Origin: Paenibacillus herberti
GTDB taxonomy: Bacteria; Bacillota; Bacilli; Paenibacillales; Paenibacillaceae
Length of the DNA stretch: 46,936 nt
NCBI RefSeq assembly: GCF_002233675.1
Contig: NZ_NMUQ01000003.1
Span: forward strand, 676,121-723,056
Direction of reading: 5' to 3'
In this document: piece after piece, positions 13,219 to 34,360 of the stretch
Numbering within the stretch: position 1 is the stretch's first letter
Layout of the letters: each line of letters begins with the position of its first letter
Program-made: the position numbers and the translations under genes
Notes under the pieces: model-generated
What the model was told of the DNA's origin: nothing
Seen by the model: the letters and a program-made list of their open reading frames with translations, nothing else
Databases searched by the model: none

Positions 13219-13623
13219 ACATTTCGCAGATTCATCGATATACTTGTATTTATACATTCCGCCAAACAATTGGAAAACAAAGTAAGTAAATTCGATAAAC
13301 AGAAGAGATTCATTGAGAATTAGATTAATTGACAAGTAAGATATCTCAATTTGAATGAGTTTAAATCGATTATGATCCGGATTGAGTTATTAACTTTTTG
13401 ATAAGATAAGAACAATAGTGAGTAAGTTGAGCGAGCCGTTAGAGTCAAGTCGTATTCAATGGATCGGCATGCTCTTATTTCCTTAACTAGTAAAATAAAA
13501 TCGGACTATTTTATAAAATTCTAGATTAATTTAAGTATAATTATTGATTTTTAAACCTGAAATAAAGTAAAGTGGATGAATGAACGATTCTGCGGTAGAC
13601 AGGTTGAATCGAGGAGGATAAGT
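13219..13623. other. AT-rich leader of the LacI-type regulator
   Basis: No gene is seen in these 405 bases. They hold a perfect 7-bp inverted repeat (ATAAAAT at 13495-13501 and ATTTTAT at 13508-13514), two exact copies of TAGATTAATT (13321 and 13522), and a consensus -10 box TATAAT at 13536-13541 with no good -35 box 16-18 bases upstream. A TTGACA at 13329 has no matching -10. The region probably carries the regulator's promoter and operators, with the inverted repeat the best operator candidate. Confidence 0.4.
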
Positions 13624-14802: not shown

Positions 14803-14938
14803 AGAAACAATTCAATTAATTAAATCTAATTTATACGTTAATATCAGCATGGTGATGGGATTATACGAGATAGAAAACCCATGTTATAGCTTCCGAAGAC
14901 ATCGGATGAAGAGAGATTTTGCGATCGGAGAGATGATT

Positions 14939-17911: not shown

Positions 17912-17930
17912 ATGGAACGGAGGCATTCTC

Positions 17931-20858
17931 ATGAAATATCGTAAGCCCCTAATATATTTAGCGATTGTTGCCGTCATTGCAGGGTACTATGGGATTAAAG
18001 CCGTTACCGATAAAAACGCCTTTATGGCAGTTTCAGCGGATAACGTGAAGACGCCCCAGAAGAACGAGCAAGGCATCCCGTACTATCAGTCTCTGCTTCG
18101 CGAAAATGCGGCATCCGGCAAAAAAAGCTACGCTGGACAGCCGATCGAAATACCGGCGACGGCCTATACGCGAGTTACCGGTGATGCAAAAACCGAGAAA
18201 GTAAAGGACGCGGAGTCTGGAGCGGAAATTCTGGATTGGAAAAATGCAAGCGGCGCCGTAGAATGGGAGGTCGACATTCCGGAGGACGGCCTTTACAATC
18301 TTGAGGTCCTATACCAATCGGGAAGTGAAAGCAGCGTATCGATCAATTACGGACTTAAAATAGACGGGAAAGCCCCGTTTTTTGAAACCGGTATCATAGA
18401 ATTTGTGAAGTATTGGCGGGATAAAACCTTTCCTTACAACAAAGATGTGCTCGGAAATGAAATCCGTTCCCAACAAGAGCAGATTCCAGGCTGGAAGTCG
18501 ATGGTCTATTCCGATTTCAGCGTTTCTTCCAAGCCGCTGGAGTTTTTCATGACAAAAGGCAAACATACCGTCCGTTTCGAGGCTCAAAACGAGCCAATGC
18601 TCTGGAAAACAATTCGTTTCATTGCTCCTGCTCAAATTCCAACGTACGCGGAATATTTGAAAAGCACAGAGGCAAAAGATTCAGGTAAATCCTGGTTCAC
18701 TAAAATCGAGGCGGAGCGCTACATACAGAAATCTCATACCTCCGTCCAGACAGGCAGCCGTAATGAGGCCTATGTGTCCCCAGACCCTGCCGGAAGAATG
18801 AAGTACAACGTTATAGACGGAGAGCGCTGGAAAAAGCCCGGCGAGTGGATTGAATGGGAGTTTGAAGTGCCGGAGACCGGCATGTATGAGATTGACGTGA
18901 AGTATTTCCAGCGTTATCAAGGCAACACCAACGTATACCGTACGATTATGATCGACGGCAAAGTTCCATTCAGCGACTTGCTTCACTACACCTTCCCCTA
19001 CAACAAGAGACTGGACATTTACACCCTTCAAGATGCGGAAGGAAAGCCGTACCAGTTCCAACTGGAAAAAGGCAAACACGTCATACGAATGACTGCGGAT
19101 GCATCGGGGGTCAACAGTCCATACCTTTCCCTTAGCGCTACGATTGACGATATTTACGAGCTTGAGAGAGAAGTCCGGAAAGTTACTGGAGATTACGGTG
19201 CCAACAGCGGTGACAGCACCCGCACCTGGGATCTGGAAAACTATATCCCGGATATTCAGCCGCGGCTCCAATCGATCAGAGACAGGCTCGACACAATTAC
19301 TAAATATTTGACTGGATTAAATCAGAACACTTCGACAGCTACGAACACGATTAAAACCGGCATTTCTATTGTTGATGACATGTTAACTGACGTTGATAAA
19401 ATTCCCAATTCGCTGAGATCTTTCCCGGATTTAGAGTCCAAGCTTGGGGCATGGTTCGATTCCTACAACCTGCAAAGCATGACCGTTGATTTTCTGGTCG
19501 TGCGCGAGCCGGGTACAAGGGCTAAGTTTAAAGAGTCCAGCGCAGTGGCCCAGGTTCCGTATATGGCGAACAATTTCCTCCGCACTTTTTATCAAAAATA
19601 CAATACCCGTGAGTTCAGTGAAAAGGAGAGCCTGGAAGTTTGGATCGGCCGCAGCAGGGACTACGCCAATCTGCTTCAGGAGATGATCAACCAGGACTTC
19701 ACAGAGAAGTATGGAATCAAGGTCAACGTCAATTTGATGCCTGATCCGAACGCTCTGCTGCTGAGCAATGCAGGTGGCGACCAGCCGGATGTTGCGCTTG
19801 GAGTCGTGCAGGATACTCCGGTCGAATATGGGATGCGTAAAGCGGCGGTGGACTTAAAGCAGTTCAGTGATTATGAAGAAATTGCAAAGCGTTTTCATCC
19901 AGGCGGAATGCGTTCCTTCCAATATAATCAGGGCGTATACGCACTGCCGGAGACGCAGGTTTTCCATCTGATGTTTTATCGGAAGAGCGTCCTGGAACGG
20001 CTCGGGGAAGAAGTGCCACAAACTTGGGACGATGTGAAAAAGCTGCTTCCATCGCTGCAAGAAGCCGGCATGACTTTCTATTATCCCAATAAAGATTACA
20101 CGCCGTTTTTCTATATGTATGGAACTGAGTTTTATACGAAGGATGGTCTTCGTCCCGGGTTTGATACGGATGCATCCTATGAAGCTTTCAAGCTATGGAC
20201 GGAGCTGTTTACGAAGTATGGTCTTCCGAAAGACGTGCCTTCCTTCTTTAATCACTTCAAGCAAGGAGATATGCCGATCGGGGTAGCCGATTTCACCACT
20301 TACTTGCAGCTGCTCTCCTCGGCGCCAGAAATTCGCGGAGACTGGGCAATTGCGCCGATCCCGGGCGTTGAACGAGACGGCCAGGTCGAAAGATGGGCGC
20401 AAAACGTGCAGATGTCCTCGATGATTATGGAGAAAAGCAATAAAAAAGACGACGCCTGGACGTTCCTCAAATGGTGGACATCAGATGAGGTGCAGCGTCA
20501 ATACGGCAGCAACATCGAATCCTATTTCGGAGTAGAGTTCCGCTGGAATACGGCAAACATGAATGCACTGGCGAGTATGCCTTGGTCGCCGGATCATCTG
20601 ACTCCTATTCTGGAGCAAAATCGCTGGGTTAAAAATATACCCATCGTGCCAGGCGGTTACTTCCTCACCCGCGAGATGGACTTTGCTTGGAACCGGGTTG
20701 TCGTGAAAAAGGTTCCTCCTAAGGACTCGTTGGACACATCGATCAATTCACTCCGCCGGGAAATGGTTAGAAAGCAGCAAAATCTTGGAATCACATCGGA
20801 TGAGAATTTGCATATTGAATCCGACACTCAGCCATACGATTGGGGGGCCTCTCGTTAA
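17931..20858 (+). CDS. Membrane-anchored fusion: two carbohydrate-binding-like domains plus solute-binding domain, 975 aa
   Basis: ATG at 17931 follows ACGGAGG at 17917-17923. One N-terminal TM helix (about residues 6-24) has no lipobox cysteine, so it is an anchor rather than a lipoprotein signal. Two related beta-sandwich domains resembling CBM6/35-type galactose-binding folds span about 95-235 and 285-405. Shared landmarks are EW-E-V/F-x-x-P, IDGK-A/V-PF, TFPYNK and KGKH-T/V. A helical linker (405-560) precedes an ABC solute-binding domain (565-960; WIGRSRDYANLLQEMI, VYALPETQVFHLMFYRKSVLE, DDAWTFLKWWTSDEVQ). Ordinary solute-binding proteins are about 400-450 residues, so this is an unusual fusion. 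Its stop shares one base with the next permease's ATG. Confidence 0.88.
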   Translation: MKYRKPLIYLAIVAVIAGYYGIKAVTDKNAFMAVSADNVKTPQKNEQGIPYYQSLLRENAASGKKSYAGQPIEIPATAYTRVTGDAKTEKVKDAESGAEILDWKNASGAVEWEVDIPEDGLYNLEVLYQSGSESSVSINYGLKIDGKAPFFETGIIEFVKYWRDKTFPYNKDVLGNEIRSQQEQIPGWKSMVYSDFSVSSKPLEFFMTKGKHTVRFEAQNEPMLWKTIRFIAPAQIPTYAEYLKSTEAKDSGKSWFTKIEAERYIQKSHTSVQTGSRNEAYVSPDPAGRMKYNVIDGERWKKPGEWIEWEFEVPETGMYEIDVKYFQRYQGNTNVYRTIMIDGKVPFSDLLHYTFPYNKRLDIYTLQDAEGKPYQFQLEKGKHVIRMTADASGVNSPYLSLSATIDDIYELEREVRKVTGDYGANSGDSTRTWDLENYIPDIQPRLQSIRDRLDTITKYLTGLNQNTSTATNTIKTGISIVDDMLTDVDKIPNSLRSFPDLESKLGAWFDSYNLQSMTVDFLVVREPGTRAKFKESSAVAQVPYMANNFLRTFYQKYNTREFSEKESLEVWIGRSRDYANLLQEMINQDFTEKYGIKVNVNLMPDPNALLLSNAGGDQPDVALGVVQDTPVEYGMRKAAVDLKQFSDYEEIAKRFHPGGMRSFQYNQGVYALPETQVFHLMFYRKSVLERLGEEVPQTWDDVKKLLPSLQEAGMTFYYPNKDYTPFFYMYGTEFYTKDGLRPGFDTDASYEAFKLWTELFTKYGLPKDVPSFFNHFKQGDMPIGVADFTTYLQLLSSAPEIRGDWAIAPIPGVERDGQVERWAQNVQMSSMIMEKSNKKDDAWTFLKWWTSDEVQRQYGSNIESYFGVEFRWNTANMNALASMPWSPDHLTPILEQNRWVKNIPIVPGGYFLTREMDFAWNRVVVKKVPPKDSLDTSINSLRREMVRKQQNLGITSDENLHIESDTQPYDWGASR

Positions 20859-21817
20859 TGAAACCGAATCTAACGACTAATCCCACGCGCATGGCGCCCG
20901 GATTCCCGCTGCAAAAAATGCTGTCGACATTATGGAGGCAGCGTCTATCTTTCATCTTTCTGGCTCCGTTTCTAATCTGTTTCACCCTGTTCATCCTTGT
21001 TCCGGTGTTTATGGCGATGTTTATGAGCTTCACTACGTACGACGGATTTCATACGCCTAAGTTTGTTGGTTTTGATAATTTTATTACGCTGATTACACAA
21101 GATCAGATTTTTATGAAATACGCTCTGCCCAACACAATCAAGTTTGCCTTTTTTGTCGGACCGGTCGGATATGCACTGACGTTTTTCCTAGCCTGGCTTA
21201 TTTACCAGCTGCCCAAGAGCATCCGGGACATTGTCGCACTGGCGATTTATGCACCTTCCATGGTCGGGGGAATCGCGCTCACTGTTGTGTGGCAAGCGGC
21301 GTTCAGCGGAGACTACGTCGGTTATCTCAACAATTTTCTAATGAAGTTCGGCTTCATAAATGCCCCGATTTTGTGGCTGCAGTCGCCGGATTACTTCCTG
21401 AACATCATGATTGTGGTCACCGTATGGATGGGCTTCAACGTCGGGTTTCTGGCCATGCTGGCTGGCTTTGATACGGTCAACCGCGAGCTGTACGAGGCAG
21501 GCCGCATCGATGGTATAGCTAACCGCCTGCAGGAGATTTACTACATCACCGTTCCTTCGATGAAGCCGCAGATGTTGTTCAGCTCGGTCATGGCGATTGT
21601 CGGAACGCTGAAGGCTGGCGCGATTTCATCACAGCTCGCTGGCGGGCCGGTCAGCCCACAGTACTCCGGACATCTCATCCTAAACCACGTTGACGACTAC
21701 GCTTTCCAAAGGTATGAGCTAGGTTACGCATCCATGGTATCCATCGTCCTGCTCGTCATCTCCTATTTTGCCATGAGACTCAGCTACCGCCTGTTTGGTC
21801 CGAAGGAAGGTGAATAG
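20858..21817 (+). CDS. Carbohydrate ABC permease, MalF/UgpA type (pair 1)
   Basis: 319 residues. ATG at 20858 shares one base with the preceding stop (TAATG). Six TM helices are visible, starting LSFIFLAPFLICFTLFILVPVF. The cytoplasmic EAA loop reads YEAGRIDGIANRLQEIYYITVPS and docks the ATPase. It pairs with the permease at 21820-22692, two bases downstream. Substrates would be delivered by the anchored binding protein encoded just upstream. Confidence 0.93.
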   Translation: MKPNLTTNPTRMAPGFPLQKMLSTLWRQRLSFIFLAPFLICFTLFILVPVFMAMFMSFTTYDGFHTPKFVGFDNFITLITQDQIFMKYALPNTIKFAFFVGPVGYALTFFLAWLIYQLPKSIRDIVALAIYAPSMVGGIALTVVWQAAFSGDYVGYLNNFLMKFGFINAPILWLQSPDYFLNIMIVVTVWMGFNVGFLAMLAGFDTVNRELYEAGRIDGIANRLQEIYYITVPSMKPQMLFSSVMAIVGTLKAGAISSQLAGGPVSPQYSGHLILNHVDDYAFQRYELGYASMVSIVLLVISYFAMRLSYRLFGPKEGE

Positions 21818-21819
21818 CT

Positions 21820-22692
21820 GTGGGAGCGATTATTTATCAGTTTAAAAAAATGAGCTGGTCGGAGATCGTGCTGCTGATCTCGCTGATGCTCATGGCGGCG
21901 TTTCTGTTTCTCCCCATTCTCTTTATTTTCAACCATGCGTTCAAGCCGTTCAGCGAATTGTTCAACTACCCGCCGACGTTTATCGTCCGGCAGCCGACGT
22001 TTCAGAATTTCAATGATCTTATTATGAAAACGTCGGCTGGCGCCGTGCCGTTCACCCGCTATGTGTTCAACAGCTTGATTGTCGTTGTATGTACGGTGTT
22101 TGCGGTTATTTTCACGAGTTTGCTGGCCGCATACGTGCTGTCGAAGCACAAGTTTTATTTCAAGTCGCTGGTTATGGGCGTTATTATGCTGTCTCTTATG
22201 TACGCGCCCGAGACGGTAGGCATTCCACGCTACCTTATCATCAGCTGGCTGGATATCAACAATACGTATTTTGGGCATATCCTGCCGTTTGTCGCCTCGC
22301 CGGTAGCCGTGTTTCTCATGAAGCAGTTCATTGACCAGATCCCGAACGATTTGATCGAAGCAGCCAAAATCGACGGTGCGACCGAGCTGCGGATTTTCGT
22401 GAAGCTCGTTCTGCCGCTGGCATTCCCGGCGGTCGCGACCATTGCGATCATTACGATTCAGGCCGTCTGGGGCGATACGCAGGCCTCCACCCTGTTCATG
22501 CAGGACGAGACGATGAAGACGCTGCCGTATTACATTTCGACTTTGGCTTCTGCTGGAACGGGCGGCAACACGATTGCCGGACAGGGAATTGCGGCGGCAG
22601 CTGGACTACTCATGTTTTTACCGAACTTGATTATTTTTCTTCTTTTCCAAAAAAGAATGATGGAAACGATGGTCCATTCCGGCGTGAAATGA
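21820..22692 (+). CDS. Carbohydrate ABC permease, MalG/UgpE type (pair 1)
   Basis: 290 residues with a GTG start at 21820, preceded by GAAGGTG at 21806-21812. It has six TM helices, with the EAA loop DLIEAAKIDGATELRIFVKLVLPLAFP. It forms the second half of importer 1 with the permease at 20858-21817, from which it is separated by two bases. Confidence 0.93.
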   Translation: MGAIIYQFKKMSWSEIVLLISLMLMAAFLFLPILFIFNHAFKPFSELFNYPPTFIVRQPTFQNFNDLIMKTSAGAVPFTRYVFNSLIVVVCTVFAVIFTSLLAAYVLSKHKFYFKSLVMGVIMLSLMYAPETVGIPRYLIISWLDINNTYFGHILPFVASPVAVFLMKQFIDQIPNDLIEAAKIDGATELRIFVKLVLPLAFPAVATIAIITIQAVWGDTQASTLFMQDETMKTLPYYISTLASAGTGGNTIAGQGIAAAAGLLMFLPNLIIFLLFQKRMMETMVHSGVK

Positions 22693-22738
22693 TGGCGGAG
22701 CGCAGCAAAAGCAAGTGGATCGGGAAGGAGGGGCTTGC

Positions 22739-24790
22739 ATGCTCAAAAGCAGGAAAATCATTTGGATCGCACTTATCTTCATCATGCTTTTTCCCGCCTC
22801 CGCCAGCGCCTCGGAGCCATACGATACGTTTTACGTAAATCATGGCACGGGTTCGGAATGGATCTCCTTTATGCAGGATGTCTATATGACTGGAGATATG
22901 ATTACCGGCTCAGACGATACCGCGCTTAATCGGCCGGCGGATCTGTTTGTAGCCGACAATGACGATATTTATGTGGCGGATACGGGAAATAACCGCATCG
23001 TTCATTTGGATGGACAGGGGAAGTGGATTCGCGCCTTCGGCACAGAGGAAGGGCCGGGAAAACTCAGTGAGCCTGAAGGGGTATTCGTCACGCATGACGG
23101 CTTGATCTATGTAGCGGATACGGGGAATCAGCGCGTAGTCATTTATAACAGCGACGGCTCCTTTACAAAGGAGTTCAAGAAACCGAATTCGCAATTTTTG
23201 CCGGAAAGCTACTACTTTGTACCGGTCAAAATTGTTGTGGATGACCGCAACGTGCTGTACGCAGTATCCCGCGGCTCCTATCAGGGCTTAGTGCGGATCG
23301 GCAAAGAGGACGAATTCACAGGCTTCTTTGGCGGAAACAAATCAAAAGCCTCGTTGATGGATCGAATCAAGCGGCTCATTTTTACGAAAGAACAGTTGGA
23401 AAAGGAAACCGCGATTCGTCCGCAAGAGGTCAGCAACGTGACGCTGAGTGATGAAGGGTTTATTCTCACGACGACGACGGGCGTGGGAAGCGACCAAATC
23501 AAACAATTGAACGCTGGCGGCAGCAGCAACCTGAAAGGGTTGAAGCATGATTCGGAGCAGATTGTCGATGTTGCTCTTGACAGCAATCAGTTCATCTATG
23601 TGCTGGATCAGCGGCTGTCGAGCCGCGAAACGCGCGGCATGGGTACGATTACGATTTATAGCCCGAGCGGGACGGAGCTGTTCCGTTTCGGCAAAGTGCT
23701 GCAGGAGCCGGATCAGAGAGGCATTCTCTCCAATCCGGTGAGCATCGATATCAACTCCCGCAACGATCTGATCGTGCTGGACAGCAATCTTAGTATGGTC
23801 CAATTTTATACCCGCGCGAGCTTTGGCAAAACGTTTTTCCAGGCCGCTACCGATTATTTCGACGGGAATTACGAGAAGAGCAAGGCGAATTGGGAAGAAG
23901 TCATTAAGCAGAACGAGCTGATCAGCTTAATTTACAGCGGTCTAGCCGAGGTGGCCAATAAAGAAGGAAATATCGAAGCGGCAATGACTTATTTCAAAAT
24001 TACGTACGATGCGGAGGGCTACTCGGAAGCGTTCTGGACGTACCGAATGCGCTTGATCGAAAAATATTTCTTCTCCGTGCTTGTGTCGCTGATCGCCCTA
24101 TGGCTACTTTACCGGTTTGCCGTCAAGCCTTATGCCGGCGCGCTTAAGCGCCGTTTGCCCAAGGTTGTGCAGATGGTGCTGGACGACTTGGGGACTGCCC
24201 TATATACGATGCTGCATCCTTATGAAGGGTTTTACCGCCTGAAAGGGAGGAACGTCTCCTTCTTGTCGCTCGGCATTATCGCGCTTTTGATTATCCTGGT
24301 GAAAATCGCGACAGTTTACTGGACCGGATTCATCTTCAACCCAATGAATCTGGAGACAGTTGTATGGTGGATCAATCTGCTTCCGTTCCTGGCTCCAATA
24401 GTGACCTGGATCGTCGCCAACTATTTGGTCAGTACGATCAAAGACGGGGAAGGACGTTTCCGCGAAGTGCTGCAAGGATCGGTTTTTGCGATGACGCCTT
24501 TTGTTGTTTTCTCGATCCCGATTATCATTTTGTCCAATATTTTGGTGCTTGAGGAAAAGGTGTTGATTTCCTCCTTATCCACTGTGATGTGGTTATGGAT
24601 CTTTACTCTCTTTATCGTGAAGGCTCAAGTTACCCACAACTTCGAATTCATCGAGAATATCCGGAATTCGATCACGACCGCCGTCACCGTCGGCATTATA
24701 TGGATTTTCATTGCCGTAAGCGCAGGTCTTACCTTCAACCTATGGGACTTTGGCTATCAGCTGTATAAGGAGGTGGCATTCCTTGGATAA
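22739..24790 (+). CDS. Exported NHL-repeat/TPR-like protein with C-terminal Yip1-type membrane domain, 683 aa
   Basis: ATG at 22739 with GGAAGGAGG at 22723-22731. A signal peptide (residues 1-25, ending ASASA) leads into NHL-type beta-propeller repeats (LNRPADLFVADNDDIYVADTG and LSEPEGVFVTHDGLIYVADTG; further blades to about residue 350). A short TPR-like region follows (about 365-430; AATDYFDGNYEKSKANWEEV). After a TM helix at about 435-457 comes a Yip1-like block of about five TM helices (from about 467). NHL propellers bind ligands or proteins, and Yip1 domains are membrane organisers of unclear bacterial role. The gene sits inside the transporter operon and overlaps the next gene, so it likely works with the importers, but how is unknown. 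Confidence 0.82.
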   Translation: MLKSRKIIWIALIFIMLFPASASASEPYDTFYVNHGTGSEWISFMQDVYMTGDMITGSDDTALNRPADLFVADNDDIYVADTGNNRIVHLDGQGKWIRAFGTEEGPGKLSEPEGVFVTHDGLIYVADTGNQRVVIYNSDGSFTKEFKKPNSQFLPESYYFVPVKIVVDDRNVLYAVSRGSYQGLVRIGKEDEFTGFFGGNKSKASLMDRIKRLIFTKEQLEKETAIRPQEVSNVTLSDEGFILTTTTGVGSDQIKQLNAGGSSNLKGLKHDSEQIVDVALDSNQFIYVLDQRLSSRETRGMGTITIYSPSGTELFRFGKVLQEPDQRGILSNPVSIDINSRNDLIVLDSNLSMVQFYTRASFGKTFFQAATDYFDGNYEKSKANWEEVIKQNELISLIYSGLAEVANKEGNIEAAMTYFKITYDAEGYSEAFWTYRMRLIEKYFFSVLVSLIALWLLYRFAVKPYAGALKRRLPKVVQMVLDDLGTALYTMLHPYEGFYRLKGRNVSFLSLGIIALLIILVKIATVYWTGFIFNPMNLETVVWWINLLPFLAPIVTWIVANYLVSTIKDGEGRFREVLQGSVFAMTPFVVFSIPIIILSNILVLEEKVLISSLSTVMWLWIFTLFIVKAQVTHNFEFIENIRNSITTAVTVGIIWIFIAVSAGLTFNLWDFGYQLYKEVAFLG

Positions 24791-26978
24791 ACCGATCTGG
24801 AAGAATCGGAAAGTAACCATTTCGGCCGCGGTTGCAATCATGCTGCTGGCCGTATGGCTCTATTCGATCTTGTCCGCTCCCGCCTTATCGGGAAAGGTAG
24901 ATTTTGAGCCAAGGAAGACCGACTTTATGCCGGTAGCTCAACAATCGCAGGCGAATCTGGGCGAGGCCGATGCAAATGGATGGACAGCGGTCAAAAAGAC
25001 CGGCCGTTATGCATTGCTGCTGAACGAGGCGACGGGCAATGTAGCTGTGCGGGACAATGAAGGCGGCTTTGAATGGACTGCTTTTGCCAAGCCGCAGCAG
25101 CTCGCTAAAGAGAAAGTGTCCGGATTGCTGCGCACGAATCTGGAATCGTCCTTTATTATGGAATATTTTGCGGCTTCCAAAATCCAGCGGCAAATCAAAA
25201 ATGCAAAGGATGAACAACTGGGTATCCAATATATTCGCACGGAATCAGGTTTTGCCGCAGTCTATCAATTCAAGGACATTCAAATTGGATTTCGGATGGA
25301 GTATGAGCTGAACGAGAACGGCTTAAAGGTATATATTCCCGTTGAGAGCATTACCGAAAAGGCCGAGTTCCGGCTCATTTCCATCGAATCGCTGCCATTC
25401 TTCGGAGCGGCGGCGCTGGATGCGCAGCCAGGCTACATGTTCGTCCCCGACGGACCGGGCGGCTTGATTCGTTTCCCGCAGACTAACATTTTGGTCGGCA
25501 AAGGGTACGAGCAGCCGGTCTACGGACCTGAATATACGGGCAATCAATTCCCTGAGACAAACATGGCTCCGCTCGCGCTGCCTGTATTCGGGATGAAGCA
25601 GGGAGCCAACGCGTTTGTCGCCATGATCGACAAGGGAGAATATACGGCCTGGATCAAGGCGATTCCATCCGGCGTCGTTGGCAGTATGAACTCAGTCAGC
25701 GCCAAGTTTATTTACAGGCAGGAGTATGATCGTCGCTTGAGTCTTGGAGGAGCATCGATCCGGGCGTTCCAAGAAGAGATGACGAAGCAGGACAGGGCAG
25801 TGGAGTATCGGTTCCTCGCTGGCGACGAAGCCGATTATGTAGGGATGGCTCAAACCTACCGGAAGTTCATGCTGGATTCAGAGCGAATTACATCTCAACT
25901 GGAACCCGTTGAGCATGTGCCTCTTGATCTGACCCTGATCGCTGGAGATTCCGATTGGAACGGCAATGCCGGATATTCGGTGGCAACAACGTTCCCGCAA
26001 GCGAAGCTCATTCAGGAGGATCTGAAAAAGTCCGGCGTTGAAGCGATGAATATTACGTATGAGACCTGGCTCAAAGACGGCAGCCTTAGCGAGCAAAGGA
26101 CCTTCTCGCTTGAAGGCAAGCTAGGCGGGGAAAAAGCTTTGAAATCGTTTGTCGACTCCGCCCATTCGAACGGCTACAAAGTTCTGTTCCAGGCTCAAGT
26201 GACAGATGCGGATTCGGAGTTTGCCAAGCATTCTCCAAAATCGTACGGCATTCGTTCCATTGAAGGCAATGTGCTGATGGACGGCAGCTGGATCTGGTTC
26301 AATCCAAACGTGGCGTACAACTTGACGAAGAACTTGGGCGAACATTTGAAGAAGTTCGGTGTAGACGGACTTCAATTCCCCGGGATCGGCTCCGCTATCT
26401 ATCGCGACTATAACCCGGAGTATAACTATCAGCGCGAGGATACGGCCTACGTATTCCAGCAAATGCAGCGATATGCCACCCAGGAGCTTGGAACAAACGG
26501 AGTTTATTTCGGAAACGCGTACTCCCTTAAGTACGCCAAGCACATTCAAGGACTTCCGAACGATGTGAACGATCATTATGGCATAGACGAAATGGTTCCT
26601 TTCATGCCGATCGTTCTGCATGGAAATATCAGCTACAACATGGGGAACGGCAATATTCGCAACGACTATGAAACGGAATTTTTAAAAGCAATTGAGTATG
26701 GAGCTATACCTGCCTTTGCGCTTACGAACGAGTCTACGCTCGCGCTGCAGGACACTTACTCCTGGGGCGTGTATAGCAGCCGGTATGAGTTCTGGAGGGA
26801 AAAGCTGTTGAAGGAGTACAGGGACTTCGATCAGTTGGCCTCTACATTCGATCAACCGATTACGGATCACCGGCAGCTGTCCGACAATGTGTTCGTGACG
26901 GAGTACGCCAATGGAGTCAGCGTAACGGTCGATTATAACAGCAAGTCGTTCCGCGTGGAGAAGGGAGGGAGCCGATGA
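24783..26978 (+). CDS. DUF5696-like membrane-anchored protein, 731 aa
   Basis: TTG at 24783 is set by AAGGAGG at 24767-24773 and overlaps the previous gene by eight bases. One N-terminal TM helix at about residues 10-27 puts the rest outside the cell. The first ~330 residues are beta-rich (GYMFVPDGPGGLIRF, NAFVAMIDKGEYTAWI). The second part looks like a TIM barrel, with VEAMNITYETWLKDG, YKVLFQAQVTDADSE, VDGLQFPGIGS and the late IPAFALTNES. I recognise this as the Paenibacillus-type DUF5696 family; an unrecognised glycosidase is possible. It sits between two transporter halves, and its stop overlaps the next ATG. Confidence 0.78.
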   Translation: MDKPIWKNRKVTISAAVAIMLLAVWLYSILSAPALSGKVDFEPRKTDFMPVAQQSQANLGEADANGWTAVKKTGRYALLLNEATGNVAVRDNEGGFEWTAFAKPQQLAKEKVSGLLRTNLESSFIMEYFAASKIQRQIKNAKDEQLGIQYIRTESGFAAVYQFKDIQIGFRMEYELNENGLKVYIPVESITEKAEFRLISIESLPFFGAAALDAQPGYMFVPDGPGGLIRFPQTNILVGKGYEQPVYGPEYTGNQFPETNMAPLALPVFGMKQGANAFVAMIDKGEYTAWIKAIPSGVVGSMNSVSAKFIYRQEYDRRLSLGGASIRAFQEEMTKQDRAVEYRFLAGDEADYVGMAQTYRKFMLDSERITSQLEPVEHVPLDLTLIAGDSDWNGNAGYSVATTFPQAKLIQEDLKKSGVEAMNITYETWLKDGSLSEQRTFSLEGKLGGEKALKSFVDSAHSNGYKVLFQAQVTDADSEFAKHSPKSYGIRSIEGNVLMDGSWIWFNPNVAYNLTKNLGEHLKKFGVDGLQFPGIGSAIYRDYNPEYNYQREDTAYVFQQMQRYATQELGTNGVYFGNAYSLKYAKHIQGLPNDVNDHYGIDEMVPFMPIVLHGNISYNMGNGNIRNDYETEFLKAIEYGAIPAFALTNESTLALQDTYSWGVYSSRYEFWREKLLKEYRDFDQLASTFDQPITDHRQLSDNVFVTEYANGVSVTVDYNSKSFRVEKGGSR

Positions 26979-27919
26979 ATCCGGTCATCCAGAGCAAAAA
27001 CAGTAGACCCGACGTCAACGAGCAGGCGGAACTACGCAGCCGCAAAAGGGCCAGATTCCGATTCAGATGGAATGAGTATGGCATGGGATATTTGTTCATG
27101 CTTCCGTGGATCATCGGTTTCCTCGTATTCATGGCAATTCCGATCTGCTGGTCGCTCTACCTGACCTTCAATAAAGTGCGTTTTACCGGCGAAGGCTTCA
27201 AGTACGAGTGGATCGGACTCCAGAATTTCAAGGATGCGTTGCTGAAGGACAATGAGTACGGTGTGCAGATTATCGCCTTTTTCCAGCAAACGATTCTGAT
27301 TCTGCCGATTATCATCATCTTCTCTCTGCTTGTCGCTATTCTGCTTAATCAGAACTTCCCGGGACGCTTCATTTATCGGGCCATATTTTTCCTCCCCGTT
27401 ATTTTCTCGACTGGCCAGGTTCTAACGGAGCTTTTCCAGCAAGGAGCAGGCGACGTTCCTTTTATATCGCAATATGGAATCGACACCTTCGTGGAAGAGA
27501 ATTTCAGCTCATCGCTTGCGGAACCGATTATCAGCCTGCTCAGCATGATCATCATCATCCTCTGGTCTTCCGGTGTGCAGATTCTGATCTTTATCGCCGG
27601 GTTCCAAACCGTGTCGCGGACGATCTATGAAGCAGTTCGAATCGACGGAGCTTCGCCTTGGGAAAGCTTCTGGAAAATAACGCTTCCCAGCATCGTGCCT
27701 TTCATCGCTCTCAATTTGCTGTATTCAACGGTTGATCTGTTCACTTCTCCAATTAATCCGGTCATGGAGCAAATCCGCAAGCACATGTTCAACGTGTCGA
27801 CCGGATACGGATATGCGAGCGCGCTGGCATGGTTCTACTTCCTGCTGATCATTGTCATCATCGCTCTCATGTTATGGTTCTTGAACAGCTCGAACCGGAA
27901 GAGGAGGTATACGGCATGA
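26975..27919 (+). CDS. Carbohydrate ABC permease, MalF/UgpA type (pair 2)
   Basis: 314 residues. ATG at 26975 overlaps the preceding TGA (ATGA); GGAGGGAG at 26963-26970 is its ribosome binding site. A basic Arg-rich N-terminus precedes six TM helices (GYLFMLPWIIGFLVFMAIPICW first). The EAA loop is YEAVRIDGASPWESFWKITLPSIVP. It overlaps the next permease by four bases. Confidence 0.93.
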   Translation: MNPVIQSKNSRPDVNEQAELRSRKRARFRFRWNEYGMGYLFMLPWIIGFLVFMAIPICWSLYLTFNKVRFTGEGFKYEWIGLQNFKDALLKDNEYGVQIIAFFQQTILILPIIIIFSLLVAILLNQNFPGRFIYRAIFFLPVIFSTGQVLTELFQQGAGDVPFISQYGIDTFVEENFSSSLAEPIISLLSMIIIILWSSGVQILIFIAGFQTVSRTIYEAVRIDGASPWESFWKITLPSIVPFIALNLLYSTVDLFTSPINPVMEQIRKHMFNVSTGYGYASALAWFYFLLIIVIIALMLWFLNSSNRKRRYTA

Positions 27920-28887
27920 AGGCAGAATTGACTCCGAGCAAGAGGTCGGTTCGGTCCTTCCTGGAAGGAAGAAAGGCCCAGAAGATCAAAATGCTCGTGT
28001 TGGGGCAGCACATGAACGACGGCTGGCTGGCCAAATTAATCATCTACTATTTGTTATCGATCATAGCGTTTCTGTACCTCCAGCCGTTTTTCTACATGAT
28101 TTCGACGATGCTCAAAAACCTAACGGATTTGCTGGACCCCACCGTTAAGTGGATTCCGCGATCCATCGATTGGAGCAATCTGGAGCGTGCCTTCAAGGGA
28201 CTGAAATATCCGGAATCGATATTGAATACAACGACGATTGCGCTGTTTGGCTCTTTGATTCAAGTGTTCATATGCGGCATGACGGGCTACGCCTTGGCGA
28301 GGCTGAAGTTTCCGGGAAAAAGCCTCTTTTTCGGACTCGTTTTCCTGACCTTTCTGATCCCGCCGCAAATTATTATCATTCCGCTTTATGTCATCTACAG
28401 CAAGCTGGGTTGGCTTAACACGCCATTTGTATTCCTCATCCCGGCCTTGTTCGGTCAAGGCTTGAAAAGCGCACTGTTCATTATCATCTTCCGACAATTT
28501 TTCAGATCACTGCCAAAGGCACTCGAAGAAGCGGCGTTGATCGACGGAGCTTCGGTGTTTAGGATGTTCTTTCGCATTATTTTGCCGCTGTCGCTTCCCG
28601 CTTGCCTAGTTGTATTTTTGTTCTCCTTCGTTTGGTATTGGAACGAGTTTTACTTAACGTCCTTTTTCCTTATCAACGATTTCACGCCTCTTTCCATCCG
28701 GCTAGGCTCTCTCGAAACGGTCATTTACGGGCCTAATCCAGTTGCCGAAGCGAAGGCACTGAATCCAGTAACAGAAGGCACCAAGATGGCAGGAGCTTTT
28801 TTGATCGTCTTCCCGCCGCTTCTTCTATATATGGTAGCCCAGCGATGGTTTGTTGAAGGGATTGAACGTACCGGGGTGGTCGATTGA
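27916..28887 (+). CDS. Carbohydrate ABC permease, MalG/UgpE type (pair 2)
   Basis: 323 residues. ATG at 27916 overlaps the previous stop and follows GAGGAGG at 27901-27907. A basic N-terminal tail (about 35 residues) precedes six TM helices. The EAA loop is LEEAALIDGASVFRMFFRIILPLSLP. It completes importer 2, whose solute-binding proteins are the two lipoproteins downstream. Confidence 0.93.
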   Translation: MKAELTPSKRSVRSFLEGRKAQKIKMLVLGQHMNDGWLAKLIIYYLLSIIAFLYLQPFFYMISTMLKNLTDLLDPTVKWIPRSIDWSNLERAFKGLKYPESILNTTTIALFGSLIQVFICGMTGYALARLKFPGKSLFFGLVFLTFLIPPQIIIIPLYVIYSKLGWLNTPFVFLIPALFGQGLKSALFIIIFRQFFRSLPKALEEAALIDGASVFRMFFRIILPLSLPACLVVFLFSFVWYWNEFYLTSFFLINDFTPLSIRLGSLETVIYGPNPVAEAKALNPVTEGTKMAGAFLIVFPPLLLYMVAQRWFVEGIERTGVVD

Positions 28888-28909: not shown

Positions 28910-28941
28910 TCACAATAAAAAAACAAAGCGGAGGCATGAAC

Positions 28942-30330
28942 ATGAATAAAAAGAAGCTGAGCACAATGCTCGTAAGCCTGATGATGGGTTCCTCACTTGT
29001 TTTAAGCGCTTGCTCCAACAGCTCGGCGCCGGCTAACAACGCCGGCACGGGCGCCAGCACCCCGCCGAGCACTCCACCAAGCGCATCGGCCGAGCCAAGC
29101 AAGGCGCCGGAACCGGCCGGCGAGCCAATCACGCTGCGGTACGTCCGCGGTTCAGGCGTCAGCGAGAACGAGCAAAAAATGCTGGATCTGTTCACGGAGC
29201 AGAACCCGAATATCAAAGTTCAGATCGAGCAGGCCAAAAGCGGCGGTATAGGCGAATTATTGGAGAAGGCGGCAGCGCTGCAGGCGGCAGGGACAACAGC
29301 GGATCTGATTTGGGTGCAGGACATTGGGACGTTTGCGAAGGATGATCTGCTCGTTGATCTTACGCCTTACATGAAATCCGATCCCGTGCTGAGCACGGCG
29401 AAAATTCCGGACAGTTCTTTGAAGGCGCTTCAATTCAAGGGAGTACAGATGGCACTGCCGCGCGCGGAAAACCCGATCATTATGTATGTGAACAAAGACA
29501 TGCTGGCTAAAAATGGCATCGATATGCCGAAAAATGACTGGACATGGGACGACTACCGCGCCATTGCCAAAAAAGTAACTAAGCCGGATGAGGCTGAGTA
29601 TGGAATTGCTTACGGCCATTTTAACTCGATCATTACCGCTGGCGTGCTGGGAGTGGCAAACGGAACGTCCGAAAACCTGTACTTTATGGATGCGGACTGG
29701 AAGCAAAGTAAGCTGACGACGCCGGAGGCAAGACGCGACATCGAGTGGATCGCGGACCTGCAGCGTGTAGATCATTCCATCGGATCATGGTCAGTGATCG
29801 AGAAATCCGGTACGGACTGGATGAACGGTAACGTGGCTTTTGAAATCCACGGAGCATGGGAAGGCCGCAACAAACGGGAGAAAGCGAAATTCAACTGGGA
29901 TGTGCTGCCGCTGCCAAGGGGCAAAGTGAAGCAAATCGGCTATAACGTCGGCACGGGCATTGGCATTTTGAAATCTTCCGCGAACCCGGATGCTGCAGCA
30001 AAATTCCTGTCATTCATGCACACGATGGAAGCGCAAAAGCTGGGCATGGCCAACGGTGACTTCCCGCTGACGGAAGATGAGGAGCTGAAACAAGCGTTGA
30101 CAGAAACGCCGATCTGGAAAGGTTCGAACATTATGGCTACCATTTCGGTGGAAATGAGAGCGGAGCCGGTCGGTGCCATCGTCGGTGCGGATCAATATGT
30201 GCAATGGTGGAGCGCCGAAGTCCAGGAGGCGTTTAAAGAAGGCAAAGATCTGAATAAGCCGATTTTCGAAAAGGCGCAGCAATATAACGAGCAGGCGCCA
30301 ACGCTTCGCGCTGCACTGGGACTGGAATGA
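28942..30330 (+). CDS. Solute-binding lipoprotein of a sugar ABC transporter (copy 1)
   Basis: 462 residues. ATG at 28942 is chosen over 28936 because GGAGG at 28930-28934 is 7 bases away from it but only one base from the earlier ATG. The lipoprotein signal ends in the lipobox LSAC with Cys24. A Pro/Ser/Ala linker follows, then a type-1 sugar-binding fold (PNIKVQIEQAKSGG, ADLIWVQDIG, ENPIIMYVNKDMLAKNG, AAKFLSFMHTMEAQKLG). It would capture sugars outside the cell for the permeases at 26975-28887. It is closely similar along its whole length to the next gene. Confidence 0.93.
   Translation: MNKKKLSTMLVSLMMGSSLVLSACSNSSAPANNAGTGASTPPSTPPSASAEPSKAPEPAGEPITLRYVRGSGVSENEQKMLDLFTEQNPNIKVQIEQAKSGGIGELLEKAAALQAAGTTADLIWVQDIGTFAKDDLLVDLTPYMKSDPVLSTAKIPDSSLKALQFKGVQMALPRAENPIIMYVNKDMLAKNGIDMPKNDWTWDDYRAIAKKVTKPDEAEYGIAYGHFNSIITAGVLGVANGTSENLYFMDADWKQSKLTTPEARRDIEWIADLQRVDHSIGSWSVIEKSGTDWMNGNVAFEIHGAWEGRNKREKAKFNWDVLPLPRGKVKQIGYNVGTGIGILKSSANPDAAAKFLSFMHTMEAQKLGMANGDFPLTEDEELKQALTETPIWKGSNIMATISVEMRAEPVGAIVGADQYVQWWSAEVQEAFKEGKDLNKPIFEKAQQYNEQAPTLRAALGLE
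29515..29543 (+). repeat. 29-base exact direct repeat, copy 1 (second copy at 30948-30976)
   Basis: An identical 29-base stretch occurs in both lipoprotein genes at the same codons (around residues GIDMPKNDW). It supports a tandem gene duplication and could allow recombination between the copies. Confidence 0.85.
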
Positions 30331-30395: not shown

Positions 30396-31757
30396 ATGTT
30401 GAACAAAAAAATCAGCTTGTTACTCTTAAGTGTGTTAACGCTTAGTGCTTGTTCCCAAAACGGTCCTACTACTGCTACCAATGCGAATTCAACCGAACCC
30501 AGTCCGACGGCAGGAGCAGTAGCGAGTACAACGCCAGCGCCTACGACCGGAGAACCGGTTACATTGACATACGTCCGCGGTGCAGGTGACGTAGGCGAGG
30601 TTGAGCAAAAATATCTCGATCTGTTTGCCCAGATGAACCCGGGATACAAAATTAAAATCGAGCCGGCCAAAGGCGGCGGTTTGGGCGATGTATTGGAGAA
30701 AGCGGCAGCCCTGCAAGCTGCCGGCACTCCCGCCGACATTGCTTGGGTGCAGGACATAATCCCGTTTGGGAAAGACGATCTGCTGCTCGACCTGACCCCA
30801 TATATGCAATCCGATCCGATTCTAAGTGCAGCAAAAATTCCAGCAGGCTCGTTAAAGGGACTGCAGTATAAGGGTAAACAGTTAGGTCTTCCAAGGGCGG
30901 AAAATCCGATGGTCATTTTCGTGAACAAAGATCTTCTGGCCAAAAACGGCATCGATATGCCGAAAAATGACTGGACCTGGTCTGATTACCGTGAAATCGC
31001 CAAAAAAGTAACCAAACCAAGCGAGAGCGAGTACGGAGTCGGCTACGGCCCTTTCAATATAAATACGGTTGCAAGCGCACTGGGAGTATCCAATGGAAGC
31101 GCGGCCAATCTGAATTTTATGGATGCGGAGTTTAAACAAAGCACGCTGACCACACCGGAAGCGCGTAAAGATATTGAATGGCTCGCTGATTTTTCACGGG
31201 TCGACGGTTCAAGAGCAACGTGGGAGAAGACCCAAAAAGAAGGAATTGAGTGGAACAGCGGAAAGGTTGCCTTTGAAGTTCACGGAGTATGGGAAGGCAA
31301 AAACGTAAGAAAAAATGCCCAGTTTAACTGGGATGTCCTTCCACTTCCAAAAGGCAAGGTGAAGCAGGTTGGCATTAACATCGCTACCGGCATCGGTGCG
31401 CTGAAAGCCTCCAAAAATCCGGAAGGCGCGGTTAAGTTCCTGGCGTTCATGCATACGATGGAAGCCCAAAAAGTGATGATGGAAAATGGCGACTTCCCGA
31501 TTACGGAAGACGAGGAGCTGAAGCAGGCTGTGCTGGAAACCCCGATCTGGAAGGGGACGAATATTAGCGCCGTAACGGATGTTGAAATGATGGCGGGTGG
31601 GCCGATTGTTGGATCAGATCAAAATATTGACTGGTGGAACGGCGAGATTCTAGATGCGTTTAGGGAAGGCAAAGATTTAAACAAGGCGATATTTGAACAG
31701 GCGCAGCATTATAACGAAGTCGCGCCAGGACTGCGCAAAGAGCTGGGATTAGAGTAA
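30396..31757 (+). CDS. Solute-binding lipoprotein of a sugar ABC transporter (copy 2)
   Basis: 453 residues; ATG at 30396 with GGGGAGGA at 30380-30387. The signal peptide ends in the lipobox LSAC (Cys19). The remainder aligns with copy 1: TLTYVRGAGD for TLRYVRGSGV, ADIAWVQDI for ADLIWVQDI, KNGIDMPKNDWTWSDYREIAKKVTKP almost unchanged, and FNWDVLPLPKGKVKQ near the end. Differences cluster at the N-terminal linker and around residues 285-300, which may tune ligand preference. It is 65 bases after copy 1 and 23 bases before the GH2 gene. Confidence 0.93.
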   Translation: MLNKKISLLLLSVLTLSACSQNGPTTATNANSTEPSPTAGAVASTTPAPTTGEPVTLTYVRGAGDVGEVEQKYLDLFAQMNPGYKIKIEPAKGGGLGDVLEKAAALQAAGTPADIAWVQDIIPFGKDDLLLDLTPYMQSDPILSAAKIPAGSLKGLQYKGKQLGLPRAENPMVIFVNKDLLAKNGIDMPKNDWTWSDYREIAKKVTKPSESEYGVGYGPFNINTVASALGVSNGSAANLNFMDAEFKQSTLTTPEARKDIEWLADFSRVDGSRATWEKTQKEGIEWNSGKVAFEVHGVWEGKNVRKNAQFNWDVLPLPKGKVKQVGINIATGIGALKASKNPEGAVKFLAFMHTMEAQKVMMENGDFPITEDEELKQAVLETPIWKGTNISAVTDVEMMAGGPIVGSDQNIDWWNGEILDAFREGKDLNKAIFEQAQHYNEVAPGLRKELGLE

Positions 31758-31780: not shown

Positions 31781-34360
31781 ATGAGAGACGAAACGAAAGT
31801 ACCGCAGTATTCCACAGCTGGGTTTTACGGAATTGAAGGAAGTCCGAGACAGGTGTTCACCTTCAATCCATGTTGGCGCTTTTGTAAAGGCGATGCTATA
31901 GGGGCGCAAAACGAAAGTTTTGACGATAGCGATTGGGAGGCGGCGGCTCTTCCGCATGGTCTCGAAATTCTCGGCGAGAATGCAAGCGGGATGAGAAACT
32001 ATCAGGGCGTCGCTTGGTATCGCAAACGTTTCACTCTTCCGGAATCGATGAAAAACAAACGTGTCGTCGTTTATTTTGAAGCGGTTATGGGCATCGCGGA
32101 CGTTTGGATCAACGGGCAAAGCGTAGCTCAGCATCTTGGCGGATATTTGCCTTTTGCAGCCGATATTACGGAGCTGGTGCGCCAAGACGGGAACAACATT
32201 ATCGCTGTTCGCGCCGACAACTCTAACGATCCTCTATATCCTCCGGGCAAACCACAGGAGTATCTCGATTTCACATACTTGGGCGGCATTTACCGCGATG
32301 TTTATTTAATTGAAACGGAAACTCTCCATGTTACGCATGATCTTTTGAGCGGGACCATTGCGGGCGGCGGCGTATTTGTAGCCGTTCAGGACGCGGAAGA
32401 GGACCGCTCCGAGCTGGTAGTGAGAACGGAAGTAATCAACGAGGGAACGGCTAGCCGCCGCTTCACTTTGCGCACGATTCTGGAAAGCATGGAAGGAAGC
32501 GTGTTGATCGTCCAGGAGGAGTCGGCGGAACTACAGCCGGGCGAATCCAAGCAATTTGAGCAGCAGCTTTCAGTAAAGAATGCTCATCTATGGCATCCGG
32601 ACGATCCATACCTGCACTTCATCCGCACGGAAGTGCTGGAAGATGTGAAGATAGTCGACAGCTTCAGAACTCGCTTTGGTATCCGTCTCTTCGAAATGCG
32701 CGGTGACGATGGCTTCTTTGTAAACAAGGAGTACATCGGTTATAAGCTGAGCGGCGTGAATCGCCATCAGGATTATGCCTATGTTGGCAATGCGCTGCCG
32801 AACTCGGGCCAATGGCGGGATGCCGTCCTGCTGAGGGAAGGCGGATCAAACGTTGTGCGCGCCGCTCACTATCCGCTTGATCCGGCGTTCATGGATGCTT
32901 GCGACGAGCTCGGTCTGCTCGTTACGGTAGCTACTCCAGGCTGGCAGTTTTATAATCACGAGAATCCGATTTTTGAACAAAGAGTAATTGAAGATACTCG
33001 TGCTATGGTTCGGCGCGACCGCAATCGCCCAGCTGTATTGTTATGGGAAACCGCTCTGAACGAAACCGAAGATCAGCCAATCTCCATGCTGAAGGAGCTG
33101 CATCGGGTCGTTCACGAGGAATTCCCGTTCCCAGGCGCGTTTTCTTGTGCTGATGTTGACAGCGCTAAGTTAGCCGGATTCGATTTCTACTATCATGGAA
33201 GTATGGAAGACGAGAAATGCTCCCTCACTCGTGAGTACGGCGATGGAGGAGAAGTAGACAATTTCGGCTCCCAGAATGCCATAACCCGTGTTAAGCGTGA
33301 ATGGGGCGAGCAAGCGATGCTGAATCAGGCTCGTGTTCGCGCCTATGATCTGAAATACATTTACAATACTCCGCCTAAGCGGATTGGCGCAACGCTCTGG
33401 TGCGGCATCGACCATCAGCGAGGTTACCACCCAGATCCGTTTTTAGGAGGGGTGCTCGATGTGTATCGTATGCCACGCTATTCTTATCACTTATTCAAGA
33501 GCCAATACGCTCCAGATTATAAGCTAAGCGGAATCAATACGGGCCCAATGGTTTATATTGCGCATGAGATCTCGCAGGTGTCGGGCAGTGACGTTACCGT
33601 ATTTACTAACTGCGAGGAAGTTCGTCTGACCTGGCTTGGTGAAATTGTCGGCACTCTGAAGCCAGAAGAAGATACGGATGTTCCCCATCCGCCGATCGTG
33701 TTCCCGAATGTATTCGATTTCCACGAGATTTCGAGCATCTGGCGGAACAGAACGGGCCAGATCGAGATGGTTGCAGAAGGTCTGATCGGTGGAGAGGTTG
33801 TCTGCCGTGAGGTGAAAACCTACTCGGAATGGCTGGCAGGCATCAAGCTGGAAGTGGATGACGTTAACGTCGCTTTGACCGCAGACGGTTCCGACTTCGT
33901 ACCGGTTCGTGCTGTGCTCGTCGACCACAAGGGTGTTCCAAAAGTGCTGGCAGACGAATACATCCACTTTGAGGTTGAAGGTCCTGCGGAAATTATTGAA
34001 GGGCAACATGTCGGTGCTAATCCGATGAAAACACAGTTTGGAGTTGCAACTGTATTCATTCGTGCTACAACGGAAGCCGGGGAAATTAGAGTGAGAGCGA
34101 GCTCTCACGGGATTAAATCGGATCAGATCGTGCTTCGTTCCACGGAGTCGGATCTACCAATGATTTTTGATCCATCTTACGCTGTAGTGGAGAATACATC
34201 GAGGCCTTCCTCAACGAAATTGAGCTTTGCTGCAGAGCAGCCAAGCGGTCCTGCCAAGCCAGAAGAAATCAGCAAGCTGGAAGAACAGGTCAAACGTCTG
34301 CAGCTTGAGCTTACAAGCAAGGAACAAGATATTATGGAATTAAAAGGAAGTCGTAAGTAA
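31781..34360 (+). CDS. GH2-family glycoside hydrolase (beta-galactosidase-like), cytoplasmic, 859 aa
   Basis: ATG at 31781 with GAGGAG at 31764-31769. No signal peptide, so it acts in the cytoplasm on imported sugars. Order: sugar-binding jelly roll (about 25-180; GVAWYRKRFTLP, FEAVMGIADVWING), Ig-like domain (185-300), TIM barrel (305-600), Ig-like domain (680-775) and a coiled coil (about 826-859). The likely acid/base is Glu428 in LLWETALNETE and the nucleophile Glu485 in LTREYGDGG. The usual N-E of the acid/base motif is kept, although its surroundings diverge. GH2 covers beta-galactosidases, glucuronidases and mannosidases; galactosidase is my guess from the cluster. The coiled-coil tail is unusual. 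Confidence 0.88.
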   Translation: MRDETKVPQYSTAGFYGIEGSPRQVFTFNPCWRFCKGDAIGAQNESFDDSDWEAAALPHGLEILGENASGMRNYQGVAWYRKRFTLPESMKNKRVVVYFEAVMGIADVWINGQSVAQHLGGYLPFAADITELVRQDGNNIIAVRADNSNDPLYPPGKPQEYLDFTYLGGIYRDVYLIETETLHVTHDLLSGTIAGGGVFVAVQDAEEDRSELVVRTEVINEGTASRRFTLRTILESMEGSVLIVQEESAELQPGESKQFEQQLSVKNAHLWHPDDPYLHFIRTEVLEDVKIVDSFRTRFGIRLFEMRGDDGFFVNKEYIGYKLSGVNRHQDYAYVGNALPNSGQWRDAVLLREGGSNVVRAAHYPLDPAFMDACDELGLLVTVATPGWQFYNHENPIFEQRVIEDTRAMVRRDRNRPAVLLWETALNETEDQPISMLKELHRVVHEEFPFPGAFSCADVDSAKLAGFDFYYHGSMEDEKCSLTREYGDGGEVDNFGSQNAITRVKREWGEQAMLNQARVRAYDLKYIYNTPPKRIGATLWCGIDHQRGYHPDPFLGGVLDVYRMPRYSYHLFKSQYAPDYKLSGINTGPMVYIAHEISQVSGSDVTVFTNCEEVRLTWLGEIVGTLKPEEDTDVPHPPIVFPNVFDFHEISSIWRNRTGQIEMVAEGLIGGEVVCREVKTYSEWLAGIKLEVDDVNVALTADGSDFVPVRAVLVDHKGVPKVLADEYIHFEVEGPAEIIEGQHVGANPMKTQFGVATVFIRATTEAGEIRVRASSHGIKSDQIVLRSTESDLPMIFDPSYAVVENTSRPSSTKLSFAAEQPSGPAKPEEISKLEEQVKRLQLELTSKEQDIMELKGSRK

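Follow-up and report, generated by a model that had tools for sequence, protein, structure and literature searches.

An NHL-TPR-Yip1 protein and a DUF5696 protein accompany two permease pairs in a conserved CUT1-type importer cassette of Bacillota

The Caldicellulosiruptor xylan locus and the locus of Paenibacillus herberti

Glycan import in Gram-positive bacteria is usually pictured as the work of one permease pair, served by a binding protein and driven by an ATPase. A larger arrangement is known from the xylan locus (XDL) of Caldicellulosiruptor (Anaerocellum) bescii, an operon given in the available text of Rodionov et al. 2021 (PMC8579813) as xloEFG-X-GH129-axoFGE-xynF-xynE-... with two CUT1 transporters. 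The same text describes the proximal XDL genes as highly induced on xylan, and the XDL transporter genes of C. saccharolyticus respond to xylan-rich biomass as well (PMC5658599, available text). Here we analyse a stretch of 46,936 nucleotides of Paenibacillus herberti (NZ_NMUQ01000003.1, positions 676,121 to 723,056), hereafter the window, in which two overlapping genes encode an NHL-TPR-Yip1 protein and a DUF5696 protein between two pairs of permeases. The order xloEFG-X-GH129-axoFGE recurs in the window, judged against Table 3 of PMC8579813 and the Caldicellulosiruptor-type locus L129; by position, X is the NHL-TPR-Yip1 protein and 'GH129' is DUF5696. The cassette of the window is thus that of the transporter part of the xylan locus.

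The initial annotation, made from the letters alone, had proposed a membrane module of an uptake system with no described function. This held for both proteins in the literature searched, whereas the operon itself is in print for Caldicellulosiruptor, with its 'X' and 'GH129' (PMC8579813, available text). As far as the accessible parts of PMC8579813 and PMC12285236 go, no role is given for X and a phylum-wide cassette is not discussed, so that in the literature searched the cassette stands as an operon of one genus and not as a general system. Open-licence literature yielded no paper on DUF5696 by name, none joining a YIP1 family protein with an extracellular solute-binding protein, and no NHL repeat in this kind of context, while Yip1 in Paenibacillus together with ABC transporters led to two papers on bacteriocins; the locus tags Athe_0177, Athe_0178, Csac_2415 and Csac_2416 were absent from it, and subscription XDL papers may say more. 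In the available text on the proteome of Paenibacillus O199, GH129 and CBM35 proteins appear only on crystalline cellulose (PMC4867992), and these may be proteins of this cassette kind.

Seven Caldicellulosiruptor-type loci were compared for the XynR operator known from the A. bescii XDL. The 44-nt probe that carries it (taken from the available text of PMC12285236) is matched exactly in three of them, L128 to L130, and the operator occurs with four mismatches in L133; it was not seen in L125, L126 (which begins at the gene) and L135. The source itself reports six genomes without the operator. At up to two mismatches, a search of 3.32 Mb gave no operator outside the seven loci. In L129 it lies 150 bp ahead of the reading frame of the fused binding protein, and a binding protein, a GH43-CBM6 protein and a CBM4/9 protein follow downstream.

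Conservation of the cassette

To follow the two genes beyond the window we compared 154 loci, all picked for DUF5696, so that the counts test the partners of DUF5696 and not the reverse. They comprise 14 loci of the genus, 60 from other genomes (13 of the family or order, and every one of the 47 full-length matches outside the family that were listed for a phylum sample of 398 genomes) and 80 named loci (the best 80 of 562 relatives in a genome-collection scan), which span Paenibacillus, Cohnella, Butyrivibrio and other Lachnospiraceae, Clostridia, Halanaerobiales, Limnochordales and Haloplasma. One locus is represented twice (L137 and L203), and the set contains 153 distinct DUF5696 C-terminal parts. 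Neighbours were assessed among profile-matching genes only, with an upstream limit of 400 nt; the family, order and phylum searches scored only the top two to four candidates per genome, and from the same-family search, with 250 genomes over the cut-off, the loci examined were the 14 of the genus and seven further ones (L146-L152).

Upstream of DUF5696 on the same strand, the next cassette gene encodes Yip1 or NHL-TPR-Yip1 in all 151 loci whose contig extends far enough, lying within 400 nt in every case and within 100 nt in 144; downstream, the next one is a permease gene at most 53 nt away in all 151 loci testable on that side. Each of the 14 other DUF5696 loci over the cut-off in the genus consists of a fused binding protein, two permeases, NHL-TPR and Yip1 (joined or separate), DUF5696 and two more permeases. 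Given strong family matches on the same strand and recurrence across the phylum, the arrangement is not due to chance. A pairing that was rare and unlinked to transporters had been named beforehand as the outcome that would speak against a membrane module; the survey gave the opposite. NHL-TPR and Yip1 are fused in 93 loci and adjacent but separate in 57 (the contig ends at L117). An accidental fusion or frameshift is ruled out by the recurrence of both forms, and a pairing peculiar to this genome by its recurrence in the genus and in the wider loci.

The genomes themselves give a similar picture. Full-length DUF5696 occurs in 37 of the 398 phylum-sample genomes (39 over the cut-off, two partial), from 15 families and 20 genera, and all 37 encode NHL-Yip1 at E 1e-30 or better. 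An alignment with rows for residues 46-365 of the NHL-Yip1 model scarcely tests its TPR and Yip1 portions. The N-terminal part of the fused binding protein is likewise present in 37 of 37, a count that takes in lineages where its gene does not adjoin DUF5696, as well as G494 with only a piece at a contig start, and for which the profile (A6) contains rows from eight of the genomes later found with it. The co-occurrence is therefore obligate in this sample. Only G632 showed NHL-Yip1 without DUF5696, and there the NHL part is a fragment truncated where an 8.5-kb contig ends. Strong matches to the fused binding protein unaccompanied by other cassette genes came only from G495 and G544, where the contigs concerned, of 3.8 and 4.3 kb, are too short to reveal such genes. 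Weak or partial homologues of this protein occur in G400, G446, G484, G517, G547 and G763, and weak, partial PF18952 matches outside cassettes in G400, G517 and G691. No match exceeded the cut-off in 14 control genomes outside the phylum, the only search beyond it. We also noted stand-alone proteins of about 450-545 residues (family f14) akin to the N-terminal half of the fused binding protein, which resembles carbohydrate-binding modules (CBMs); they lie at L240:9178-10809, L242:5154-6743, L243:980-2584 and L245:10127-11473, and no cassette gene was matched nearby.

The initial annotation had also proposed surveying the pairing with the fused binding protein, which is encoded within the flanks at 120 of the 129 loci with room on both sides; at six loci it is placed, with its permeases, after permease 4. 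The order NHL-Yip1-DUF5696-permease 3-permease 4 with no fused binding protein near was seen at L101, L104, L105, L110, L116, L122, L124, L220 and L222, and in the first seven of these the protein is encoded elsewhere in the same genome. A separate binding protein lies near at least 45 of 77 loci by a home-made profile; for the 32 misses, one neighbour was tested at each of ten loci and five proved to be binding proteins, so that 45 is a lower bound. A flank survey scanned 92 proteins (of 103 selected, from 26 of the 80 named loci; ten of the 11 dropped lie on the opposite strand). Members of the glycoside hydrolase (GH) families GH29, GH66, GH76, GH3 and GH10 and an arabinofuranosidase were found among flank proteins of the named loci. 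The neighbouring glycosidases vary, with GH2 and GH110-like proteins in the window and GH43 in the Caldicellulosiruptor type, which together with the common separate binding proteins is in keeping with one shared chassis that takes a variety of glycans.

P. herberti carries a second full cassette on another contig (G000 contig C1, L024:4362-19503), in which NHL-TPR (499 aa) and Yip1 (208 aa) are encoded separately by overlapping genes; an ATPase gene lies upstream of them, and downstream there are genes for two separate binding proteins. In the Caldicellulosiruptor-type locus L126 (3662-6518), permease 2 is split into two pieces about 1.6 kb apart, as by an insertion.

The two proteins and their proposed role

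Both genes lie where the initial annotation had placed them, each behind a Shine-Dalgarno-like AAGGAGG. The product of the first matches NHL in Pfam (E=1.4e-17), with NHL repeats and a predicted propeller fold, and Yip1 (PF04893; 8.3e-7, 29.5 bits against a cut-off of 28.6), for which the L129 copy scores 77.6 bits. Its TPR_16 match is weak (E 0.05, 14.5 bits, under the cut-off of 32.7); residues 361-421 nevertheless form TPR-like helices in the AlphaFold2 model (mean predicted local distance difference test score 90.3), and profile comparison pairs this stretch with consensus TPR proteins. Hydrophobic segments at 4-26 and from 439 onward agree with an exported propeller plus a multi-transmembrane domain, as had been read from the sequence. 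The second protein matches DUF5696 (PF18952) with E=2.5e-153 and 512.3 bits against a cut-off of 25.6, over positions 4-603 of the 612 of the profile. Its single hydrophobic segment is N-terminal (residues 10-37) and its predicted model contains a GH129-like TIM barrel, in line with the single-span TIM-barrel protein annotated before. The overlap with its TTG start was confirmed, whereas coupled translation fared less simply: it is plausible here, but the 8-base overlap form is found at 25 of 150 Yip1-DUF5696 junctions and a Shine-Dalgarno-like core within the last 27 nt of Yip1 at 67, so that signs of coupling, common among relatives of the window locus and not universal, would reflect a tendency and no rule.

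In both predicted fold and sequence the window copy of DUF5696 is homologous to GH129. It seems to lack the GH129 acids: the position of the nucleophile Asp435 of NagBb falls on Pro533-Gly534, with no acid in 533-538, and that of Glu478, which we take to be the acid/base residue, on Tyr575-Phe576-Gly577, an equivalence drawn from a low-confidence stretch of one alignment and left unaligned in another comparison. The L129 copy likewise has no acid in either stretch. Since Asp435 aligns to column 534 and the equivalent Asp486 of ZgGH129 to column 537, the count of acids was widened from 533-534 to 533-538; on the narrower definition, 39 of 70 DUF5696 proteins have an acid in 533-534, 22 in 575-577 and 12 in both. 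Four residues that differ in the NagBb quadruple mutant, presumably with a metal role, were read from two chains, and three of them map to unconserved DUF5696 columns. Loops that are conserved in DUF5696 lie at 217-231, 246-250 and 602-614.

The reading that we favour, tentatively and without counting it as the probable one, takes the two proteins to be obligate accessory subunits of a conserved cassette, a 'double importer' for glycans. This cassette would consist of the fused binding protein, permeases 1 and 2, NHL-TPR-Yip1, DUF5696 and permeases 3 and 4, often with separate binding proteins and, in the window, also a UgpC/MsmK-type ATPase. Outside the membrane, the anchored binding protein, through its CBM-like modules, and DUF5696 would both hold the glycan; the window copy of DUF5696, with a GH129 fold and no acids at the catalytic sites, would serve to receive or present it. 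A hub made of the NHL propeller and the TPR hairpins, with the Yip1 domain as its tether in the membrane, might hold receptor, binding proteins and both permease pairs in one place, which would let freed oligosaccharides pass to the importers. We infer complex formation, glycan binding and the hub role, and it is gene linkage and fusion that point to a single complex; in the extracellular parts that stay constant (CBM-like modules, DUF5696, propeller and TPR) we see a hint of capture and transfer at the membrane. A bolder version, in our view doubtful, has a stable supercomplex of two ATP-binding cassette (ABC) permease pairs, the anchored CBM-bearing binding protein, a DUF5696 receptor and the NHL/TPR/Yip1 hub as a Bacillota-wide glycan chassis, in which DUF5696 would be a GH129-fold receptor that gave up catalysis in some lineages. 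Such a chassis would be to Gram-positive bacteria what the glycan 'utilisomes' of the outer membrane are to Bacteroidetes.

Several observations weigh against accessory subunits with a receptor role. Nine of the 129 loci have no fused binding protein nearby, a separate one is not found at every locus, and a conserved neighbourhood would be expected of an enzyme or an assembly factor too. An acid occurs in 533-538 in 55 of the 70 DUF5696 proteins, at both sites in 15 and at neither in eight; the paralogue in L024 has Glu at 537; and the alignment of the sites is uncertain, with reference nucleophiles three columns apart and the Glu478 site of low confidence. Much of the family may therefore be catalytic. 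DUF5696 could then be, in many members at least, a working GH129-like membrane-bound glycosidase that trims oligosaccharides at the importer mouth, with NHL-Yip1 as its scaffold. Its homology to GH129, the conserved family acids at 542 (93%) and 638 (99%), the 'GH129' label in the XDL (PMC8579813, available text) and the activity of ZgGH129 with one of the two NagBb catalytic residues (PMC5698469, available text) agree with such an enzyme. The window and L129 copies without acids do not, near-invariance would be expected of an enzyme family rather than both acids in 15 of 70, and a single conserved exo-activity would be odd beside neighbouring glycosidases that imply many glycans. We retain a plain GH129 enzyme as a rival and do not adopt it, holding it to be rather unlikely.

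Subunits that stay with the importer are also to be set against transient ones, since NHL-TPR-Yip1, perhaps with DUF5696, might be folding or assembly factors that insert or pair the permeases and are absent from the finished importer. TPR and propeller domains generally bind proteins, and at the majority of loci one permease pair lies on either side of the genes; to our knowledge, however, other CUT1 importers require no such factor, and a large extracellular sugar-enzyme fold as in DUF5696 would be superfluous for one, which makes this improbable to us. Least credible of all is a sensor role, in which the module would detect glycan outside the cell at the importer and inform regulation instead of aiding transport. 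Receptor-like extracellular domains do adjoin a membrane domain, and histidine kinase, response regulator and LacI genes are among some of the 92 flank proteins, but the Pfam scan matched no cytoplasmic signalling domain in either protein, and permeases accompany all 151 testable loci where regulators stand beside few.

The usual picture of the importer names fewer parts than are seen here: at every testable locus further components stand beside the permeases, and the phylum sample has them in 15 families, with carriers that include gut or rumen Clostridia as well as thermophiles that degrade xylan. The label of GH129 enzyme has been printed for DUF5696 in this setting, although the window and Caldicellulosiruptor-type copies have no acid at the catalytic positions. 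Growth on xylan is a clear phenotype against which the role of the cassette can be tested, since the A. bescii XDL contains it.

Neighbouring genes and relation to known systems

The genes around the pair, listed in Table 1, make up a CUT1 ABC importer, with a binding protein, an ATPase and permeases bearing the coupling motif. As annotated, two permeases precede the pair and two follow it; EAxxxDG is present in all four, so that both permease pairs look able to couple to an ATPase. The fused binding protein (SBPfus) has a hydrophobic segment at 8-28, then CBM-like beta domains and then the solute-binding domain; its CBM-like matches are sub-threshold (Golvesin_C 26.3 bits, CBM_35 22 bits). 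We take the beta-helix protein upstream to be GH110-like. The closest NCBIfam models of the GH2 glycosidase are beta-galactosidases, each under its cut-off.

Table 1. Features of the cassette and its surroundings in the window.
Feature	Position	Strand	Evidence or remark
662-aa protein	7226-9214		DUF4097 toastrack and weak LiaF-TM matches; after an MgtC-family gene
LacI-family regulator, probable local regulator	13576..14631	+	Pfam LacI 2.6e-9, Peripla_BP_3 1.5e-24
Right-handed beta-helix protein with GLAA-B barrel domains	14849..16723	+	Pfam PF23763 3e-24, PF23764 1.3e-18
UgpC/MsmK-type ABC ATPase	16790..17911	+	NCBIfam NF008653 449.5 bits, cut-off 432
SBPfus, fused binding protein (XloE position)	17925..20858	+	SBP_bac_1 2.1e-20; start codon chosen by us
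Permease 1 (XloF position)	20858..21817	+	BPD_transp_1 1.6e-10; EAGRIDG motif
Permease 2 (XloG position)	21820..22692	+	BPD_transp_1 8.8e-15; EAAKIDG motif
NHL propeller, TPR-like hairpins, transmembrane segment and Yip1 protein ('X' of XDL operon)	22739..24790	+	683 aa; ATG start at 22739; AAGGAGG at 22725-22731; stop ends at 24790
Shine-Dalgarno-like AAGGAGG ahead of DUF5696 start, within end of Yip1 coding region	24767..24773	+	sequence
8-base overlap TTGGATAA: TTG start of DUF5696 and stop of Yip1 gene	24783..24790	+	sequence
Membrane-anchored DUF5696 protein, predicted GH129 fold, apparently no acid at or near GH129 catalytic positions	24783..26978	+	731 aa; TTG start at 24783-24785; stop ends at 26978
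Permease 3 (AxoF position)	26975..27919	+	BPD_transp_1 3.8e-9; EAVRIDG motif
Permease 4 (AxoG position)	27910..28887	+	BPD_transp_1 3.4e-19; EAALIDG motif; start codon chosen by us
Separate solute-binding protein	28936..30330	+	SBP_bac_1 1.8e-34; lipobox-like LSAC by eye
Second separate solute-binding protein	30396..31757	+	SBP_bac_1 1e-27
GH2 family glycosidase	31781..34360	+	Glyco_hydro_2_N 1.1e-21
1554-aa protein, downstream	34637-39301		Big_2, beta-helix, SLH match
2031-aa protein, downstream	40533-46628		PKD domains; lower-GC stretch (0.38-0.44)

Among enzymes, the nearest described relatives of DUF5696 differ from it in site and setting. Compared with NagBb (the GH129 alpha-N-acetylgalactosaminidase of the PDB 5WZN series), the window protein appears to have no acid at the equivalents of the two catalytic residues, and it has an N-terminal membrane segment and a fixed importer context. 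ZgGH129/DagB, a 3,6-anhydro-D-galactosidase (PDB 5OPQ, 8RZK), is described as a homodimer with a strictly conserved Asp486 (PMC5698469, available text), whereas the column of that residue (537) is acidic in 30% of DUF5696 proteins. Among transporters, CUT1 importers of the MalEFGK type with a shared MsmK/UgpC ATPase have the same permeases, solute-binding proteins and ATPase type, to which the cassette adds a second permease pair, NHL-TPR, Yip1, DUF5696 and an enlarged binding protein. The XDL of Caldicellulosiruptor/Anaerocellum bescii (PMC8579813 and PMC12285236, available text) is the closest system, with the same gene order and families; the cassette of the window differs from it in being accompanied by GH110-like and GH2 genes and by no xylanases.

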